From Collimonas sp. OK412 (GTDB lineage Bacteria; Pseudomonadota; Gammaproteobacteria; Burkholderiales; Burkholderiaceae_D), in contig NZ_FOLC01000012.1 in the NCBI RefSeq assembly GCF_900112135.1, positions 62,001 through 126,000 on the forward strand: DNA of 64,000 nt, written 5' to 3'. The stretch's first letter is position 1, and every line of letters begins with the position of its first letter. The position numbers were made by a program, and so were the translations under genes. The notes under the pieces are model-generated. The model searched no databases. It had not been told where the DNA came from and was given only the letters and a program-made list of their open reading frames with translations. Shown here in pieces: positions 1,013-60,112 of the stretch.

Positions 1013-4000
1013 GCACCTGGCGTCGGCGCAGCAGCAGGTACACCGCCGGCACCACAAACATCGACAGCAGCGGCGCCGTGATCATGCCGCCGACCATCGG
1101 CGCCGCAATGCGCTGCATGACTTCCGATCCGGTGCCGGCGCCAAGCATGATCGGCACCAGGCCGGCGATAATCACCGCCACCGTCATCGCCTTCGGACGC
1201 ACCCGCAGCACCGCGCCTTCGCGGATCGCGTCGAGCAGGTCGGCTTCGCTGTGCTTGCCGGCAGCCAGCCGTTCTTCCCAGGCATGCTTGAGATAGAGCA
1301 GCATGATCACGCCGAACTCCGCCGATACGCCCGCTAGCGCAATGAAACCGACGCCGCCGGCGACCGACAGGTGGTAATCGAGCAGCCACAGCAGCCAGAT
1401 GCCTCCGGCCAGCGCAAACGGCAGCGTGCCCATGATCAATGCCGCCTCGTCGAAACGCTTGAAGGTCAGGTAAAGCAGGACGAAGATGATCAGCAAGGTG
1501 GCCGGCACCACGATCTTGAGCTTGGCGGTGGCGCGTTCCAGATACTCGAACTGCCCTGACCAGGCAATCGAATAACCCGCCGGCAATTTGACTTCCTTCG
1601 CCACGGCTTGCTGCATGTCGTGCACGGCCGAGCTCAGGTCGCGATCGCGGATATCGACATAGACCCAGCCCGACAGGCGCGCGTTTTCGCTCTTCAGCAT
1701 CGGCGGGCCGTCGTTGATGCGGATCGCGGCGACATCGCCCAGCCGGATCTGGGCGCCGCGCTCGGTCAGCACCGGCAACTGGCGCAGCTTCTCGACCGAG
1801 TCGCGTACTTCGCGCGGGTAACGCACATTGATCGGGAAGCGCTGCAATCCCTCGACAGTTTCGCCAATGTTGTCGCCGCCGATGGCGGCCGACACCACGC
1901 TTTGCACGTCTGAGATATTCAAGCCGTAGCGGGCCGCCGCATCGCGGTCGATACGCACATCGATATAGCGGCCGCCATTCAAGCGCTCGGCCAAGGCCGA
2001 CGAGACGCCGGGAACCTGCTTGACGGCACGTTCTATGTCGCCGGTAATGCGGTCGATTTCCTGCAAGCTGACGCCGGCCACCTTGACGCCGACCGGGCTT
2101 TTGATGCCGGTGGCCAGCATGTCGATCCGGTTGCGTATCGGCGGCACCCAGATGTTCGACAGCCCGGGCACCTTGACGATGCGATCCAGCTCTTGCACCA
2201 GCTTGTCCGGCGTCATGCCGGGCCGCCATTGGCCGCGCGGCTTGAACTGGATCATGGTTTCAAACATTTCCAGCGGCGCCGGATCGGTGGCGCTCTCGGC
2301 GCGGCCGGCCTTGCCGAACACGCTTTCCACCTCCGGCACGGTCTTGATCAGGCGATCGGTCTGCTGCAGCAATTGCGACACCTTGCCCGCCGATAAACCA
2401 GGCAGCGCCGACGGCATGTACAGCAGGTCGCCTTCGTCCAGCGGCGGCATGAATTCACCGCCAAGCCGGGCCATGGGCCAGGCCGTCAGCATCGCCACCA
2501 ACGCTGCCGCCAGCAGGGTCATCCTGGGGAAGCGCAGCACGATATCAAGCAAGGGCCGGTACAGCGCGATCAGGAAGCGATTGAGCGGATTTCTCTGTTC
2601 ATCGGGAATCCGCCCCCGGATCAGGTAGCCCATCAAGACCGGGATCAGCGTCACCGCCAGGCCGGCGGCGGCCGCCATGGCATAGGTCTTGGTGAAGGCG
2701 AGGGGAGCAAACAGGCGTCCCTCCTGGGCCTCCAGCGTGAACACTGGAATGAACGAGAGCACGATGATCAGCAGCGAGAAGAACAAGGCCGGACCTACTT
2801 CGGCTGCGGCGTTGCCGATGACGCGCCAATGGTCATCCCCTGCGAGTTTTTCGCCAGGATGGGCGTGGTTCCAGGCTTCGATATGCTTGTGGGCGTTCTC
2901 GATCATCACCACGGCGGCGTCGACCATGGCGCCAACAGCGATGGCAATCCCGCCCAGCGACATGATATTGGCATTGACTCCCTGGTAGTACATGACGATG
3001 AAGGCAACCAGGATGCCGATCGGCAGCGTGATGATGGCAACCAGCGCCGAGCGCAGGTGGAACAGGAAGAGCGCGCAGACCACGGCGACAACGATGAATT
3101 CCTCGACCAGCTTTTCTTTCAGGTTTGCGACGGCGCGCTTGATCAGGCTTGAACGGTCGTAAGTGGTGACGATTTCCACCCCCGGCGGCAGGCTCGCCTT
3201 CAGTTTCTCCAGCTTGACCTTCACCGCATCGATGGTCTCCAGCGCGTTTTTGCCGGACCGCATGATGATCACGCCGCCGGCAACTTCGCCTTCGCCATTC
3301 AATTCGGCGATGCCGCGCCGCATTTCCGGGCCGACCTGGATGCGGGCGACGTCGCCCAGCCGCACCGAGACCCCGGCGTCGGTCGTCATCAGCGGAATCT
3401 TGCGGAAATCGTCCAGCGATTTCAGGTAGCCCGAGGCGCGCACCATGTATTCGGCTTCGCCGAGCTCCAGCACCGAACCGCCGGTCTCCTGGTTGGCTTT
3501 CCGCACGGCGTCGATGATCCTGCCTTGCGGAATGTTGTAGGCGCGCATGTTGTCCGGATCGAGCACGATCTGGTACTGCCGCACCATGCCGCCGATGCTG
3601 GCCACTTCCGATACATTCGGCACCGCTTTCAGCTCGTACTTGAGGAACCAGTCCTGCAGGGCGCGCAGCTGCGACAAATCCATCTTGCCGCTGCGGTCGA
3701 CCAGCGCATATTCGTAGACCCAGCCGACGCCGGTCGCGTCCGGACCGAGCGCGGTTTTCGCTTGCGGCGGCAGCCGCGATTGCACCTGGTTCAGGTATTC
3801 CAGCACCCGCGAGCGGGCCCAGTACGGATCGGTGCCGTCTTCAAACAGGATGTAGACGAAGGAATCGCCGAAAAACGAATAACCGCGCACTGTCTTTGCC
3901 CCCGGCACTGACAGCATGGTGGTGGTCAGCGGATAAGTGACCTGGTTTTCGACGATCTGCGGCGCCTGGCCGGGATAGCTGGTGCGGATGATGACTTGCA

Positions 4001-4133
4001 CATCCGATAAATCCGGAATCGCATCCAGCGGCGTGCGCGCCAGCGACCAGATGCCCCAGGAGGTCACCATCAGCGTCGCCAGCAGCACCAGGAAGCGGTT
4101 GGCGACGGACCAGCGGATCAGCTTGGCGATCAT
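999..4133 (-). CDS. cusA: CusA/CzcA-family RND heavy-metal efflux pump
   Basis: A 1044-residue inner-membrane proton antiporter of the HME-RND class, the usual length for CusA. It opens with the family start [18 protein letters not shown] (first membrane helix), followed by the [18 protein letters not shown] porter segment. The TM4 region [20 protein letters not shown] contains the Asp/Glu expected for proton relay in this class. Several Met residues lie in the porter domains, consistent with Cu(I)/Ag(I) export. With CusB and CusC it forms a tripartite pump across both membranes. Its ATG overlaps the cusB stop in an ATGA arrangement, so the two are translationally coupled. Longer reading frames upstream are inside cusB and are not used. 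Substrate (copper/silver rather than Co/Zn/Cd) is inferred from the CusF neighbours. Confidence 0.95.
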
Positions 4134-5680
4134 TGCGCGGCTCCCTTCGCAGCGCCTGCCGCCGGCGCAATCGTGGAGATCTCGAACGCGCCATCCTTGA
4201 CAGGATGAATCTCGAAGACGACGTTGCCGCCGACCGCAATGTTGCCTGGCAAGCCGGCGGCGGGCAGCTTGAAGCCCATCGTCATCGCCCCCCATTGCAG
4301 GCTGGGGATTGGTCCATGCGAGATGGTGATCTCGTCCCTGGTGATGCTTTCGACCCTGCCTTCGCCGCGGTGCGCCGGCCCGGCGGCCTTGTCGGGCGCC
4401 GGCGCGGCCATGCCCGCCATGCGTGTTTCCGTGCCCGTCAGGCTGGCTTCCGAATCGATCAGGAACTGGCCGGAGACGACCACCTTTTGTCCGGCATCCA
4501 GTCCTTTGCGGATTTCGGTCTGGCCGTTGGTTTCGCTGCCGGTTTCAACCTCGGCCGGGATGAACTTGCCGTTGCCTTGCGCCACCATGACGACACTGCG
4601 GGTGCCGGTCTGGATCACCGCTTCGGTCGGCACCAGCAAGACATCCTTGCGCGCCACCGACGAAAAATCAATCGTCGCAAACATGCCCGGCACCAGCCGG
4701 CCGGCCGGATTGGCCAGTTCGATGCGCGCCTTGAGCGTGCGGGTTGCGGGATCCACATCCGGCAGGATCGCGCTGACCCTGCCTTTGAATACCGTTCCTT
4801 GCAGCGCCGGCGTGCGCGCTTCGACCATGTTTCCGGGCCGTACCTGCGCCGCCAGGCTCTCCGGCACGTCGGCATTGACCCAGATCGTGCCGAGGCCGTT
4901 GATCTTGAACATTGGAGCGCCTGCCATCACGGTCATGCCTTCACGCACGGCCAGTTCCGAGACCACGCCGCCGATAGGCGCGAATATGGTCAGGCGCGCC
5001 TGCACCTTGCCGCTCGATTCCACCAGCCGGACCTGGTCGTCGGTCATGCCGGCCAGGCGCATGCGCTGGCGCGCGCCGCCAAGCAGGTTATCCATGCCGC
5101 TGCCCTGCATGCGCCGGACCGACAGGTACTCTTCCTGTGCCGCCACCCACTCCGGCACATACAGTTCGGCCAGCGGCTGTCCTTTGCGCACCGGATCGAG
5201 CGGCGCGCGTACATGCAGCCGCTCGACGAAGCCATTGCTGCGCGCCTGCACCAGGGCGACATCGCGTTCGTTGTATGCCACGCTGCCTACCGCTACGACT
5301 GCCGACGCCAGATTGCCCCTGATGACTTCGGCGGTACGGATGCCGAGATTCTGCTGTACGCGCGGGCTGATATTTACTTTGCCGTCGTCGCCGGCATCGC
5401 CGCCATCGTCGGCATATACCGGGACCAGCTGCATATCCATGAACGGCGATTTGCCAGGCTTGTCGAACTTCTGGCCCGGCGCCATCGGATCGTGCCAATA
5501 CAGCACTTTCTTGCCGGAGCCGTCGGCTTTTGCTGCGCCGATTACCGGAGACGGCGTCTCGTTCGACATCGGCGCCGCCATTTTTTTACCCTGGTTCATG
5601 CCGGCCCAATACAGGCCATAACCGGTTCCCGCAAGGAGAACGGCAATAACGGCAGCGAGTAATGGTTTCTTGTTTTTCAT
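4130..5680 (-). CDS. cusB: CusB periplasmic adaptor with C-terminal CusF-like domain
   Basis: A 516-residue membrane-fusion protein linking CusA to the outer-membrane channel. An N-terminal membrane anchor (residues 1-27) is followed by a heavy-metal-binding segment [20 protein letters not shown] then MDMQLVPVY (about residues 64-92), typical of CusB. The barrel-sandwich and hairpin regions follow, ending near the [20 protein letters not shown] motif. The last ~80 residues form a second, CusF-like domain ([16 protein letters not shown]) fused to the adaptor, so donor chaperone and adaptor are one chain. The ATG at 5680 overlaps the cusC stop (ATGA) and the stop overlaps the cusA start (ATGA). 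Confidence 0.95.
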
Positions 5681-53882: not shown

Positions 53883-54095
53883 CGTCCTATCCTGCTGTTC
53901 AACCCGACTGATCTCAAATCGGCTACATACAATCCACTGCTGGAAGTCCGACGCGGCGCGCACGAAGTGTGCGACGTGCAGAACTTCGCTGATATCCTGG
54001 TCGATCCCGAAGGCGTGCTGGAGCGGCGCAACCACTGGGAAAAGACTTCGCACGCTCTGTTGGTCGGCGCGATCTCGCATGCCCGCTCGAGGTAG
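53883..54095 (+). pseudogene. TraG-type conjugation coupling protein remnant
   Basis: A 70-residue reading without start codon matches the middle of TraG/VirD4-like coupling proteins: LLFNPTDLKSATYNPLLEVR, DVQNFADILVDPEGVLERRN and HWEKTSHALLVGAI. It is followed at once by a stop and unrelated sequence. Coupling proteins are encoded by conjugative plasmids and integrative elements, so this is a scar of one. The rest of 53745-54297 (upstream scraps reading GGWLDPRNGSDWYPIERLFH, then the promoter of the peptide locus) holds no intact gene. Confidence 0.75.
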
Positions 54096-54297: not shown

Positions 54298-54486
54298 ATG
54301 ACTAAATCAAATAGCAATCACGAGCAAGGATTGAAATTGCATCTTTCCGATGCACAACGCGAAGAATTGGTACGGTTCATTACTGAAAACGGTCACGCAA
54401 AACTGGACATTGATCTTTTATTTGAAGGCAATGTTTCGGCTAAAACAATTGCCCCAGTCGCTGTATTGGTAGGCAATGCCATCTAA
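54298..54486 (+). CDS. Putative RiPP precursor peptide (62 residues)
   Basis: A 62-residue peptide gene with AAGGA 8 bases upstream. The first two thirds are charged and helical (LHLSDAQREELVRFITENGH, residues 14-33), like a leader bound by a recognition element. Then comes KLDIDLLFEGN (35-45), then a small hydrophobic tail VSAKTIAPVAVLVGNAI (46-62), poor in charge and free of Cys, Ser-rich or Trp/Tyr residues. The stop lies inside the next gene: 11 bases overlap with the radical-SAM gene, so translation is coupled. Short peptide plus SPASM maturase is the classic RiPP layout. That this is a substrate is inference. It could instead be a small accessory protein. Confidence 0.7.
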   Translation: MTKSNSNHEQGLKLHLSDAQREELVRFITENGHAKLDIDLLFEGNVSAKTIAPVAVLVGNAI

Positions 54487-55735
54487 TTCCGTACCGGTTA
54501 GTCGAGGCGTGCCGGATGTGCGTATTCGACGAGAAGAATTCGGGTACGTATTAGCATTTGGCACAGGAGAAATCGGTTTTTATAATGACGAAGTCGCCTC
54601 TCGCTTGCTGCGCGGCGCGGCGCGGGAAGAGCTTGAACCCTATAGATTGCATTCCATTCCGGTACGTGACGAATTTCACTTGAGCGCCCCGTTGATCGTA
54701 TGGTTCGAAATCACCCGTTCGTGCAACTTGTCATGCCGGCACTGTTATATTGAAGCTGGGAAGCCCAGGAAAAATGAGTTATCGACGCCTCAGATTTTCA
54801 ATGCGTTGGATCAGTTAAAAGCAGCAGGTGTCTTTGCATTGGTGCTGGTCGGCGGTGAGCCGATGCAACACCCTGATTTTTTACAAATACTCAATTACGC
54901 GCATGCGCTGGGTTTTGTCATCTCGATAGCGACAAATGGCGCCTATATCACCCAAGAATTAATCGATGTTCTGCCGCGAGAAGAATGTGTGGTCAGCGTC
55001 AGCATCGACGGCACGGCATTTCACAAGGAAATGCGCATTCGCTCTACCTGGGAAGATTTGCGCGAACGCATACTTTTGCTTCGCAAGAACAATATTCCAA
55101 CCGCCATCATGTCGACGCAAGCGGATCGCAATGTCGAGGAATTGCACTCGATTTTAGCGTTTGCGCGTGAGAACCTGTGTTTCTTCGGATCGACACCATT
55201 TAGTCCAATTGGACGCGGACGATTCTTTGCCGAATACCAGCCAAAACCCGATATCGTCGAGCAAGCCGCCCAGCTTTATATCGCCGACAAGCGTCACGAC
55301 CAAATCATGAACGATACCGTGGGATTGTGCGTAGCCAAGTTCCTCGACGAATGCCACCGCATCGCGCAAGCGACCGGGCGTGAATTTTGCGGCGTCGCGA
55401 TGGCATATCTGTTAAGCGATGGCTCGCTTTATCCATGCTCGATTTGCGCCTCGAATGAAAAATTCGGCGCCGGCAACATACGCGATAAATCATTCAAACA
55501 TATTTGGGAAAACTCGTTCGGCGGAATTCGTCAATTTACCTACGACAAATTCAAGGAATGTCCGAATTGCGAACTGTCCCGCGACCCATACTATTGCACC
55601 TCGCGCTGCCCTGTGATGGCAGAAGTGCATACTGGCGATGAATTGGGTTGCGGCGCCACGCCATTTATCAAAGCAAGCTTAAAGAGACGAACGCAGTTAT
55701 TGCAAACAGAGTTTCCGGAACCAGCTGGCGATTAG
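54476..55735 (+). CDS. Radical SAM/SPASM peptide maturase with N-terminal RRE-like region
   Basis: A 419-residue enzyme. Residues ~12-50 (VPDVRIRREEFGYVLAFGTG, EIGFYNDEVASRLL) resemble the PqqD/MftB-type peptide-recognition element. The radical-SAM cluster motif is C83-x3-C87-x2-C90 in ITRSCNLSCRHCYIEA, with the SAM-binding VGGEPM at 125-130. The C-terminal third has eight Cys (305, 321, 324, 362, 365, 374, 378, 392), consistent with a SPASM domain holding two auxiliary 4Fe-4S clusters. It looks like the PqqE/MftC group, which modify ribosomal peptides by radical chemistry. It overlaps the precursor gene by 11 bases and is followed 10 bases later by a pyruvoyl decarboxylase-like gene. Reaction type is unknown. 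Confidence 0.85.
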   Translation: MPSNSVPVSRGVPDVRIRREEFGYVLAFGTGEIGFYNDEVASRLLRGAAREELEPYRLHSIPVRDEFHLSAPLIVWFEITRSCNLSCRHCYIEAGKPRKNELSTPQIFNALDQLKAAGVFALVLVGGEPMQHPDFLQILNYAHALGFVISIATNGAYITQELIDVLPREECVVSVSIDGTAFHKEMRIRSTWEDLRERILLLRKNNIPTAIMSTQADRNVEELHSILAFARENLCFFGSTPFSPIGRGRFFAEYQPKPDIVEQAAQLYIADKRHDQIMNDTVGLCVAKFLDECHRIAQATGREFCGVAMAYLLSDGSLYPCSICASNEKFGAGNIRDKSFKHIWENSFGGIRQFTYDKFKECPNCELSRDPYYCTSRCPVMAEVHTGDELGCGATPFIKASLKRRTQLLQTEFPEPAGD

Positions 55736-55745
55736 CGCCGATAGC

Positions 55746-56234
55746 ATGAGTCGAACGATACCCGTCATTTCCAGCATCGGCACTGGACAGACTGAGTTGT
55801 CCGCATACGATGACGCCTTGTGGAAGGCGGGGATTGGCAACTGCAACCTGATCCCGCTCTCCAGCGTCATCCCACCGGCGTGGGCGCCGCAAAGCAATGC
55901 CCGACTCGATTTTATTCCTCGCTGGGGCAACCGTTTATATGTAGTGCAAGCAATGTGCACAGCGGGCGACAATGCACGTATTGGGCTTGCCGCCGGCATC
56001 GGGTGGGCAATATTCGATCATGGAGGCGGAGTATTCGTGGAACATCACGCGGTTGCGTCCGATGCAGATCATGCGTTACGGGATATCGAACGACAAATTG
56101 GGCTTTCAATCGATGATCTTTGCCATCGGCGCGATGCGCTTCCTGTGATTCAGGGACAAATGACCACATCGACCACTGCGCACGTTCCTAGCTGCGCATT
56201 GGTGGTCGCCGTGTTCAAGGAAGAGGATTGGTGA
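55746..56234 (+). CDS. Pyruvoyl-dependent arginine decarboxylase-like protein
   Basis: A 162-residue protein matching the PvlArgDC family in length and layout. The self-cleavage site is in GIGNCNLIPLSSVIPP: cleavage between Ser39 and Ser40 would give a beta chain and an alpha chain with an N-terminal pyruvoyl group. The later catalytic Glu seems to be Glu99 in GGGVFVEHHAV (EYHG in archaeal enzymes as I recall). Family members decarboxylate arginine to agmatine. Here the gene lies between two radical-SAM genes and overlaps the second one, so it may act on a modified peptide or a product derived from it. Substrate specificity cannot be read from the sequence. Confidence 0.82.
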   Translation: MSRTIPVISSIGTGQTELSAYDDALWKAGIGNCNLIPLSSVIPPAWAPQSNARLDFIPRWGNRLYVVQAMCTAGDNARIGLAAGIGWAIFDHGGGVFVEHHAVASDADHALRDIERQIGLSIDDLCHRRDALPVIQGQMTTSTTAHVPSCALVVAVFKEEDW

Positions 56235-57472
56235 GAAATCCGATCATGGATATTCGCAATAAGATCGACACAATAGGCAACGAACCCATTTCCTATGACG
56301 AACATGGCGACATCCCGTTCGAGGTGCCATTCCGCCAAATCGAAGCAAAAGATATTAGCCTTTATCTACAACTTGATACCACAGTCGGCAAGAAAACCTG
56401 CCGGCAAGCGTGCGCCCATTGCTTCTACATCAACCAACCCGAAGCAGCCAATCGCTCAATTGACTTGCTAGAAGGAAGACGCATCATGGACGACCTTGGC
56501 AATCAAGGTTATCGCGTCTTTCCCATGATCTCGGACAGTTTCAGTGCCAACGGTGCATTTTTGCGACTATTCGGTAATACGCATAACCGCGACTTTCATC
56601 AAGAGCACGATTGCAAACCGACTAAAACCATGCAGAGGGGCGATATGTGGACCAGTGGCGCCCCGCTGCTGGACGCTAACTGGAAAGATTATTTGTGGAC
56701 CGGCATCGAAAACGGCTTTGGCAATGTCACCATCACCTTTCATGGCGTCCTGGATGAAAATTTGACGCTCATGCCGGCCCACACTTATCCAATCAAAGGG
56801 GTATTTCACGGACAGGATTGCGAACGGGTCATGTCGCGCATCCACGAATTCAACGCCGAACTGGATGCCGCCAGTCAGCAACCGCTAAACATCAATCTTG
56901 GCGTAACAATCGGCAAGCATAATCACGGCCGCGAGCACTTGATCCGATATGTGAAATATTTTTCAAAGTGGCGCATTTCAGTATTGCGCTTTAATACATT
57001 CCACGATCATGGATGGCGATTGCCGCATCTGCCGCTAACGAGAGATGAAATTGTGCAGTGGTATCGAGATTTGAAGTGGGTACATGAGAATCTGCCTCTC
57101 GATTTCCAACTTGGCGTCGACGAGGATTTCGGCAGCAATGGCATTGGCGTGATGGATTTTCCTCCGCATGTCGGCTGGTGCCGCGCCGGACGGCAGCTAT
57201 TCGCCATCGTTCCCGACACGCCGGAGGAAATTGGCGTGAGCGAATTCAATCGCAAAGAAAAGATCGGATCGATAGCGGCATGCGTCGATGCATTCAAACC
57301 AATCGTCGGCAAGTTGGTGCGCGAAACGCCATTGCGATTTGGCGCACCCCGCTATCATCTGGAGTTTTTTTATGACGTCATTGACGAACTGACCTGCAAA
57401 CGACTGAATGGAAGCTACCGCGATGGCTGTTTTGCGGCGGAAATGCTCCAGGAACAAAAGGACAAGCTGTAA
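56231..57472 (+). CDS. Second radical SAM protein of the peptide locus
   Basis: A 413-residue protein with the cluster motif C57-x3-C61-x2-C64 in TCRQACAHCFYINQ. No SPASM-type Cys cluster follows, so it differs in class from the first maturase. Notable conserved-looking blocks are NVTITFHGVLDENLTLMPAH, INLGVTIGKHNHGREHLIRY and LRFNTFHDHGWRLPHLPLTR, which are His-rich. The GTG start overlaps the stop of the decarboxylase-like gene (GTGA); TTG 56228 and ATG 56246 are alternatives. I do not recognise a named family. It is the last gene of the unit. Confidence 0.8.
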   Translation: MRNPIMDIRNKIDTIGNEPISYDEHGDIPFEVPFRQIEAKDISLYLQLDTTVGKKTCRQACAHCFYINQPEAANRSIDLLEGRRIMDDLGNQGYRVFPMISDSFSANGAFLRLFGNTHNRDFHQEHDCKPTKTMQRGDMWTSGAPLLDANWKDYLWTGIENGFGNVTITFHGVLDENLTLMPAHTYPIKGVFHGQDCERVMSRIHEFNAELDAASQQPLNINLGVTIGKHNHGREHLIRYVKYFSKWRISVLRFNTFHDHGWRLPHLPLTRDEIVQWYRDLKWVHENLPLDFQLGVDEDFGSNGIGVMDFPPHVGWCRAGRQLFAIVPDTPEEIGVSEFNRKEKIGSIAACVDAFKPIVGKLVRETPLRFGAPRYHLEFFYDVIDELTCKRLNGSYRDGCFAAEMLQEQKDKL

Positions 57473-58895: not shown

Positions 58896-59945
58896 TTAGC
58901 CAGCCAGCGTGGCGTTGTCGATCACGAAGCGATACTTGACATCACCCTTAAGCATGCGCTCGTAGGATTCGTTGATCTGGTCGGCGCGAACCATCTCAAT
59001 GTCGGCTACGATGCCGTGCTGTGCGCAGAAATCCAGCATCTCCTGTGTCTCAGGAATGCCACCGATCATCGAGCCTGCGAGGGAGCGACGCTTCATGATC
59101 AAATTGAATACGTTAGGCGACGGATGCGGGGTCGCGGGGGCACCTACCAAGGTCATCGTGCCGTCGCGCTTGAGCAGTACGAGGAACGCATCAAGATCGT
59201 GCGGGGCTGCGACCGTGTTCAGGATGAAGTCAAAGCTCTTAGCGTGCGCGACCATTTCCTCTGCATTACGCGATACCACGACTTCATCGGCCCCCAACTC
59301 CTTTGCCGCTTCGCGTTTGGACTCGGAGGTAGTGAATGCCACGACATGAGCGCCCATCGCATGGGCCAGCTTGATGCCCATGTGACCAAGGCCACCGATG
59401 CCAACAACACCAACTTTCTTGCCCGGTCCAGCATTCCAATGACGCAGTGGCGAATAAGTTGTGATGCCCGCGCATAGCAGGGGAGCGACAGAAGCCAATT
59501 GCTCCACTGGATGACGGATTCGCAGCACATAGCGCTCGTGCACAGTAATTGTTTGCGAGTAACCACCCAGCGTCCAACCAGGTTCATCAGGTGTTGGGAA
59601 GTTGTAGGTTCCTACCATTCCGTCGCAGTAATTTTCCATGCCAACGTCGCAGTCATCGCAGTGCTTGCAGCTATCAACGATGCAGCCGATCCCGACCAGA
59701 TCACCAACACTGAAACTCGACACATGTGCGCCTAGCGCCGATATCCGACCGACGATTTCATGGCCAGGGACACAGGGAAATTGCGTGCCTGCCCACTCCC
59801 CGCGGACTTGATGCAAGTCCGAGTGGCAAATACCGCAGAAGGCGATGTCGATCTGAATGTCGTGCGCTCCAGTCTCGCGACGATTTATTTGCAGTGGTTC
59901 AAGGGGTTGATCACCCGCGTGAGCACCATAGGCTTGTACAAGCAT
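58896..59945 (-). CDS. Zinc-dependent NAD(P) alcohol dehydrogenase (YahK/CAD-like)
   Basis: A 349-residue medium-chain dehydrogenase. The catalytic zinc site is CGICHSDLHQVRGEW with the GHEIVGRI block; the structural zinc Cys cluster is CKHCDDCDVGMENYC. The Rossmann motif GVVGIGGLGHMGIKLAHAMG and the following ESKREAAKELGADEVV are present. It would reduce aldehydes with NADPH, like YahK, but the substrate is open. ATG 59945 has a perfect GGAGG 7 bases upstream; the longer frame is not needed. It is divergent from a decayed AraC regulator gene, the usual partner of such a dehydrogenase. Confidence 0.94.
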   Translation of the reverse strand: MLVQAYGAHAGDQPLEPLQINRRETGAHDIQIDIAFCGICHSDLHQVRGEWAGTQFPCVPGHEIVGRISALGAHVSSFSVGDLVGIGCIVDSCKHCDDCDVGMENYCDGMVGTYNFPTPDEPGWTLGGYSQTITVHERYVLRIRHPVEQLASVAPLLCAGITTYSPLRHWNAGPGKKVGVVGIGGLGHMGIKLAHAMGAHVVAFTTSESKREAAKELGADEVVVSRNAEEMVAHAKSFDFILNTVAAPHDLDAFLVLLKRDGTMTLVGAPATPHPSPNVFNLIMKRRSLAGSMIGGIPETQEMLDFCAQHGIVADIEMVRADQINESYERMLKGDVKYRFVIDNATLAG

Positions 59946-60112
59946 GTGAAACCTCCTTTGTACGTTACGTTGAATATGCATTTTCCGGCTTCACTCGATG
60001 ATTTGGTAGAGCATTCCACTGCATTTCTTGCCCAATCCTATGAGTGTTTATGGTTTTTGTAGAAAAATTGGGGGGGGGCGGGTAGAGTTCTGTACGAAGC
60101 CTAGGAGTAAAC

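Follow-up and report, generated by a model that had tools for sequence, protein, structure and literature searches.

A four-gene cassette in Collimonas sp. OK412 that may couple a ribosomal peptide to a pyruvoyl-type enzyme and two radical-SAM-type enzymes

Results

Layout of the cassette

The window analysed here is a stretch of 64,000 nucleotides from Collimonas sp. OK412 (contig NZ_FOLC01000012.1, positions 62,001 to 126,000), in which four open reading frames (ORFs) lie in one direction at 54298-57472, all on the forward strand and at the positions originally predicted. The first, P0001 (54298..54486), was called as an ORF and has orthologues at three other loci; it encodes a presumed precursor peptide of 62 residues, with AAAGGAAG upstream. 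The portion of the peptide C-terminal of K49 reads TIAPVAVLVGNAI, and the tail APVAVLVGNAI (54451..54483) is the presumed core. P0002 (54476..55735) encodes an MftC-like radical-SAM/SPASM enzyme, assigned by Pfam families PF04055 and PF13186 and by its best NCBIfam model, TIGR03962, and its CX3CX2C cluster motif (C83, C87 and C90; 54722..54745) is unchanged in five aligned sequences. P0003 (55746..56234) is a PvlArgDC-family protein (PF01862, 2e-21) with a presumed self-cleavage site at Ser39-Ser40 (55860..55865), which aligns with residues 52-53 of the Methanocaldococcus jannaschii enzyme. The last gene, P0004 (56231..57472), encodes a second radical-SAM-like enzyme from a family without a model. 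It was assigned from its invariant cysteines, its fold matches and a CX3CX2C motif (residues 58/62/65; 56399..56422) seen in the sequence and in a four-sequence alignment.

P0001 and P0002 overlap by 11 bases in the window, and 10 bases separate P0002 from P0003, as had been predicted. The overlap between P0003 and P0004 depends on the start codon: it is 4 bases (GTGA), the value first given, with the GTG at 56231, and 7 bases with the TTG at 56228, while an ATG at 56246 is also possible. The 11-base overlap is not clearly kept across carriers, as in the three relatives the ATG that aligns with the P0002 N-terminus sits a few bases past the peptide stop. Scans for promoters (3 found, shuffle mean 3.8) and terminators (1 found, shuffle mean 5.0) gave no excess. 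No transporter, protease or immunity gene was found inside the cassette, in agreement with the earlier claim.

Distribution, insertion site and mobility

When 392 genomes of the family were searched with the P0004 profile only, four matched, and all four carry the complete four-gene set in the same order. The three carriers besides the window genome (loci L002, L003 and L023) include Rugamonas aquatica and Duganella sp. BJB480. Their proteins are 60-61% (peptide), 78-79% (P0002), 61-64% (P0003) and 71-73% (P0004) identical to those of the window. The original prediction hinged on the short gene being conserved beside the two radical-SAM genes, and the peptide frame is indeed present in all three relatives. 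In other samples the P0004 profile matched 3/60 relatives of one carrier and a single one of 398 genomes drawn across the phylum, which is the source genome itself; among 60 genomes related to that of the window, a single-sequence search likewise recovered only the window genome. None of 45 pattern-matching stretches of viral contigs encodes a P0004 relative. PF01862 is itself uncommon: it was found in 4/398 of the phylum genomes (the PvlArgDC match in genome G519 is partial, covering profile positions 59-161 close to a contig end). It was also found in 1/215 family genomes, again the source genome; this smaller sample evidently excludes the other three carriers, which do have a PF01862 gene.

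In the three relatives the cassette sits between metC/hisC and rimO, with metC, hisC, rimO and a LacI-type gene in the flanks and no dehydrogenase. Six genomes were searched for rimO and four non-carriers were read at the rimO-metC site. Two of these hold merely ~80 and ~150 bases there, and this near-empty site defines the unit as exactly four genes. The four genes were thus inserted at rimO-metC as a unit, with nothing else accompanying them there. The other two non-carriers have a different insert, comprising a creatininase-family gene and a YVTN beta-propeller gene (L040 1505-3621, L041 1483-3593); in the family scan, done on L040, the creatininase-family gene is MftE-like, under the cut-off.

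The window cassette is located elsewhere than rimO-metC. Its GC content is 50.7%, compared to 59.4% for the rest of the window, while in the three relatives the cassette is within ~2.5 points of its flanks. Adjoining it upstream in the window, outside the proposed pathway, is a remnant of a TraG/type IV secretion system coupling protein (53895..54092, forward strand; PF02534 1.1e-06, profile positions 100-161 of 468). Together, the low GC content and this conjugation-gene remnant suggest that the cassette is horizontally mobile.

The peptide P0001

Among the three relatives, P0001 has a dN/dS of 0.09-0.15. Between the window and these relatives, dN amounts to 0.25-0.27, and no dS could be calculated (the value of -1 returned is read as saturation). 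The peptide frame is a real gene under purifying selection, in line with the claim of a conserved short gene. Tail variation between genera had been expected for a core peptide and is not seen: the final 11 residues do not differ among the four carriers, which belong to two genera. P0001 holds a single Val-Gly and no TVGG repeat, and it matches no Pfam or NCBIfam family. The source genome has no second copy beyond a chance match (E 0.09), and neither P0001 nor another peptide, P0013, has a match on plasmids. In all four carriers a short precursor-type gene is kept beside a modifying enzyme, as is typical of ribosomally synthesised and post-translationally modified peptides (RiPPs), so that the peptide plus SPASM maturase layout noted in the window also holds in the relatives.

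The radical-SAM/SPASM enzyme P0002 and its relatives

Pfam matches to Radical_SAM (7.9e-21) and SPASM (9.9e-08), along with the CX3CX2C motif, identify P0002 as a radical-SAM enzyme. The best NCBIfam model is that of the mycofactocin maturase MftC, at 114.7 bits against a cut-off of 265 that is not reached, and P0002 shares 27-29% identity with four MftC proteins across 290-302 residues. The source genome has no second P0002.

Relatives on rhizobial plasmids (the five best of 260 records) share 33-38% identity with P0002 over 97-100% of its length; a sixth record, from Agrobacterium (25%), was set aside. Neighbourhoods were read for all of these five except CP006583.2, and the P0002 relatives adjoin a B12-binding radical-SAM gene and a homologue of pyridoxal phosphate (PLP)-type decarboxylases. 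The B12 radical-SAM neighbour in Sinorhizobium (L011) is ApyD-like by NCBIfam (9e-71, under the cut-off), and that in Mesorhizobium (L014) is a B12-binding radical SAM by annotation. The decarboxylase homologues near these SPASM and B12 radical-SAM genes resemble diaminopimelate decarboxylase (L011 10329-11435, L014 10233-11489). A gene resembling queA of queuosine synthesis (L011 5672-6697) lies in the plasmid cluster of Sinorhizobium meliloti GR4, which also encodes PqqD-like, SPASM and ApyD-like proteins.

SnoaL-like proteins are encoded upstream of the rhizobial SPASM genes (L011 5127-5618, L012, and L029 10095-10556). Their C-terminal tails, ..IATISAVLGVAQ in L011 and L012 and ..VATAAAAVGTPK in L029, faintly resemble the window tail. 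The resemblance is not significant: scores at least as high are reached by 30 and 50 of the 1255 background C-termini, and by 266 and 370 among 2000 shuffles. As a lead, the SnoaL-like proteins might be rhizobial precursors with an enzyme-like leader.

Across the 398 phylum genomes, the P0002 profile passes 1e-40 in just two, the window's and one other (G662, locus L027). In the latter, an MftC-like SPASM gene, a more remote relative of P0002, is followed by a 78-residue ORF (L027 9860-10096) with two 13-residue repeats, DGV(T/S)LAMVGAASA, and then by TrmO-like, HutW-like radical-SAM and methyltransferase genes. This ORF occurs in 1/58 genomes of its genus. The repeats suggest that enzymes of this group act on peptides. 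Homology between P0001 and this peptide was considered and rejected; as a lead, the two still have a short Val-Gly resemblance.

The pyruvoyl-type protein P0003

P0003 scores 77 bits against PF01862, above the gathering threshold of 22.7, and by profile homology it aligns with the M. jannaschii enzyme across most of its length. Six of its residues (D22, L25, N34, S39, S40 and E99) are invariant in six aligned sequences and are the counterparts of D35, L38, N47, S52, S53 and E109 in M. jannaschii, where the solved sequences 1n2m and 2qqd have Ala at positions 53 and 47. We take these kept residues to be catalytic, with D35 of the arginine enzyme presumably a contact to the substrate.

Pyruvoyl enzymes form a Schiff base with the amine of their substrate, so P0003 would need a substrate amino acid that is free and carries its own alpha-carboxylate. 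For a residue at the C-terminus of an intact peptide, such a reaction is chemically unlikely, and the earlier proposal that an exposed amino-acid unit of the peptide is decarboxylated is not upheld on this point. A Schiff base between the pyruvoyl group and the substrate amine is described for phosphatidylserine decarboxylase in the abstract of PMC7952604.

A PvlArgDC relative with 34% identity to P0003 lies behind a class-V-aminotransferase/cysteine-desulfurase-like ORF, assigned by eye, in another genome (G659; L019 ~3500-5420). This appears to be a different genomic setting for the P0003 subgroup.

The radical-SAM-like protein P0004

Neither Pfam nor NCBIfam contains a match to P0004, and searches of solved structures by sequence gave nothing credible (lowest E 0.16 and 0.95). 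Invariant in four aligned sequences are C58-X3-C62-X2-C65, C318, C352 (within GX4C) and C401. An AlphaFold model built from three sequences is weak (pLDDT 50, pTM 0.47; prediction from a single sequence gave pLDDT 34). In this low-confidence model, the cluster loop follows the first strand, and there are six strands with five intervening helices. Foldseek with the same low-confidence model returned PqqE at 7.5e-04 as the sole match below 0.001, with SuiB and SkfB in the first six at values above it, and with unrelated KaiC and RAD51 chains interspersed. Because of the CX3CX2C motif, the order of strands and helices, and the radical-SAM folds among the first Foldseek matches, we consider P0004 likely, though not proven, to be a radical-SAM enzyme whose family has no model. 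The second radical-SAM gene is thus supported less firmly than first stated, by the motif and weak fold matches, with no family match and a low-confidence model on the other side.

A relative with 40% identity is found on plasmid pR33-1 of Providencia sp. R33 (L004 1152-6042), followed by genes for an ATP-grasp protein, a major facilitator superfamily (MFS) protein and a PLP enzyme of the MalY/PatB family; no peptide gene was seen in this cluster. The best NCBIfam models for the ATP-grasp protein are PRK02186 and PRK07206, followed by those of the dipeptide ligases BacD and DdaF; none reaches its cut-off, and the Pfam LAL_C2 score of the protein is 29.2 against a cut-off of 29.4. The four-gene Providencia cluster looks like a small-peptide natural product cluster, and E. 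coli genomes gave no match to L004 bases 1152-4800. On an Enterobacter cloacae plasmid, a fragment of a P0004 relative adjoins a transposase gene, together with rhodanese and MFS genes. These plasmid settings point to a small molecule as the probable P0004 substrate.

Discussion

A minimal peptide-modification pathway

We propose, with a probability of roughly 0.5, that the locus is a self-contained, horizontally mobile, minimal RiPP-type pathway with a small-molecule tailoring half. P0001 would be the precursor, with its conserved DIDLLFEG region serving in recognition and the tail APVAVLVGNAI being modified. The MftC-related P0002 would make a radical change in this tail. From its retained residues, P0003 is expected to self-cleave between Ser39 and Ser40 to give a pyruvoyl group, and it would then decarboxylate either an amino acid that the modified tail has set free or a free basic amino acid. 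P0004, whose gene overlaps that of P0003, may modify that small amino acid, or the amine. A small amine or cofactor derived from the peptide would result, and it would act inside the cell, since no exporter accompanies the cassette. Every chemical step in this scheme is one that we infer; the gene content and order, the co-occurrence of the genes, the selection on the peptide, the residues retained and the insertion as a unit are observed. From the original prediction, this proposal retains the gene order, the conserved short gene, here with an invariant tail, and the pairing of peptide and SPASM enzyme, and it parts with the RiPP recognition element (RRE), the genus-variable tail and decarboxylation on the intact peptide.

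A bolder version of the scheme is tentative: a pyruvoyl decarboxylase may have been recruited into a ribosomal-peptide pathway, in which a P0002-type enzyme rewrites the tail and a unit is freed, decarboxylated to an amine and finished by another radical enzyme, whose family is undescribed. Four genes would then suffice to make amines or cofactors of a new, peptide-derived class. In the open-access library searched, we found neither a pyruvoyl decarboxylase in any RiPP or cofactor pathway nor a description of this combination.

Several observations weigh against our proposal. Only four cassettes, from two genera, were found among the 392 family genomes. There is no peptidase or exporter within the cassette, and an unlinked peptidase was not sought. 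P0002 falls under the cut-off of all NCBIfam models among the matches listed (25 of 87), and its N-terminus, described earlier as RRE-like, resembles MftB over 26 columns only (hhalign P 0.036 local, 0.27 global) with no Pfam PqqD match, so that the RRE is unproven. P0003 misses the arginine-decarboxylase equivalog TIGR00286 (41.8 bits against a cut-off of 106.95). Both rhizobial decarboxylase homologues have Met in place of the PLP-binding Lys (FATMAN compared to FAVKAN), which makes a decarboxylase role doubtful and speaks against a shared decarboxylation step; these proteins are probably not decarboxylases. The idea of a decarboxylase common to P0002 systems was dropped on account of this substitution in Mesorhizobium and Sinorhizobium. 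Finally, the score of P0001 against the L027 peptide is matched by 4156/5000 shuffles for the 27-residue tail region and by 2699/5000 for the whole peptide.

Alternative explanations

The four genes could instead comprise two adjacent modules, with P0001 and P0002 producing a modified peptide and P0003 and P0004 producing a radical-modified amine, for example from arginine or agmatine, the two products being joined later or used separately. The Providencia cluster, where a P0004 relative occurs with neither peptide nor SPASM gene, fits this explanation, as do the overlap of the P0003 and P0004 genes in the window and the Asp in P0003 that aligns with D35 of the arginine enzyme. However, the four genes occur together in 4/4 carriers and were inserted at rimO-metC as a single unit in three, the cassette has no ligase, and P0003 is under the arginine-decarboxylase cut-off, so we regard separate modules as somewhat doubtful.

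It is unlikely that P0002 converts the Val of Val-Gly to cyclopropylglycine, as TvgB does in TVGG repeats according to PMC9062424, with the other enzymes tailoring the product. The dipeptide is present in the P0001 tail and in both L027 repeats, but P0001 has no TVGG repeat, the short Val-Gly match is not significant, and the likeness to TvgB is one of description.

Still less probable is a redox cofactor of the pyrroloquinoline quinone (PQQ) or mycofactocin kind, for which the tail would undergo crosslinking and excision before serving a dehydrogenase encoded elsewhere. The MftC-like character of P0002, the place of PqqE at the top of the fold matches to the P0004 model, the lack of an exporter or immunity gene, and a zinc alcohol dehydrogenase 1.4 kb downstream in the window (58896-59981, opposite strand) are all consistent with such a product. 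Against this, the tail has neither Tyr nor Glu, the cassette has no MftD/E/F or Pqq-type partner, no dehydrogenase lies in the flanks of the three relatives, and 4/392 genomes is a sparse distribution for a cofactor. Membership in the known mycofactocin or PQQ systems is ruled out by the cut-offs, the tail and the absent partners.

Least probable is that the short ORF encodes a small protein that assists or regulates the enzymes: P0001 has only 62 residues, no family match and no adjoining peptidase, but it precedes the MftC-like gene as mftA precedes mftB and mftC (four records), and its extreme C-terminus is invariant.

The peptide-derived amine or cofactor pathway that we favour is open to direct testing after reconstruction in E. 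coli, because the unit is small, bounded by an empty site and equipped with a recognisable precursor. P0004 also opens a radical-SAM-like family that has no Pfam or NCBIfam model, with relatives in clusters of small-molecule type on two enterobacterial plasmids.

Comparison with known systems

P0003 keeps the Ser-Ser pair and the aligned Asp, Asn and Glu of the M. jannaschii pyruvoyl-dependent arginine decarboxylase (1n2m, 2qqd), from which it differs in missing the equivalog cut-off and in its place within a peptide-gene cassette. The aminopyruvatide pathway (PMC10635010) uses the B12 radical SAM ApyD, and the Sinorhizobium P0002 relative adjoins an ApyD-like enzyme; P0004 itself has no B12-binding or other Pfam domain, and the cassette has neither an MNIO nor a P450. 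The TVG pathway pairs a radical-SAM/SPASM enzyme (TvgB) with a Val-Gly peptide (TvgA), as in our cassette. According to PMC9062424, that pathway has a repeated TVGG core, a dioxygenase and transporters, whereas the cassette has none of these. Among solved folds PqqE ranks first for the P0004 model, and the maturases SuiB and SkfB are in the first six, although the model is of low confidence (pLDDT 50), KaiC and RAD51 rank between them, and there is no credible sequence match. Mycofactocin differs in that P0002 stays under the MftC cut-off (114.7 vs 265 bits), the P0001 tail VLVGNAI stands against IDGMCGVY in the four MftA peptides compared, and the cassette has P0003 and P0004 and no separate MftB or MftD/E/F. 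As in MftA/MftB/MftC, a short peptide gene lies ahead of a radical-SAM/SPASM maturase, and that maturase is nearest to MftC.

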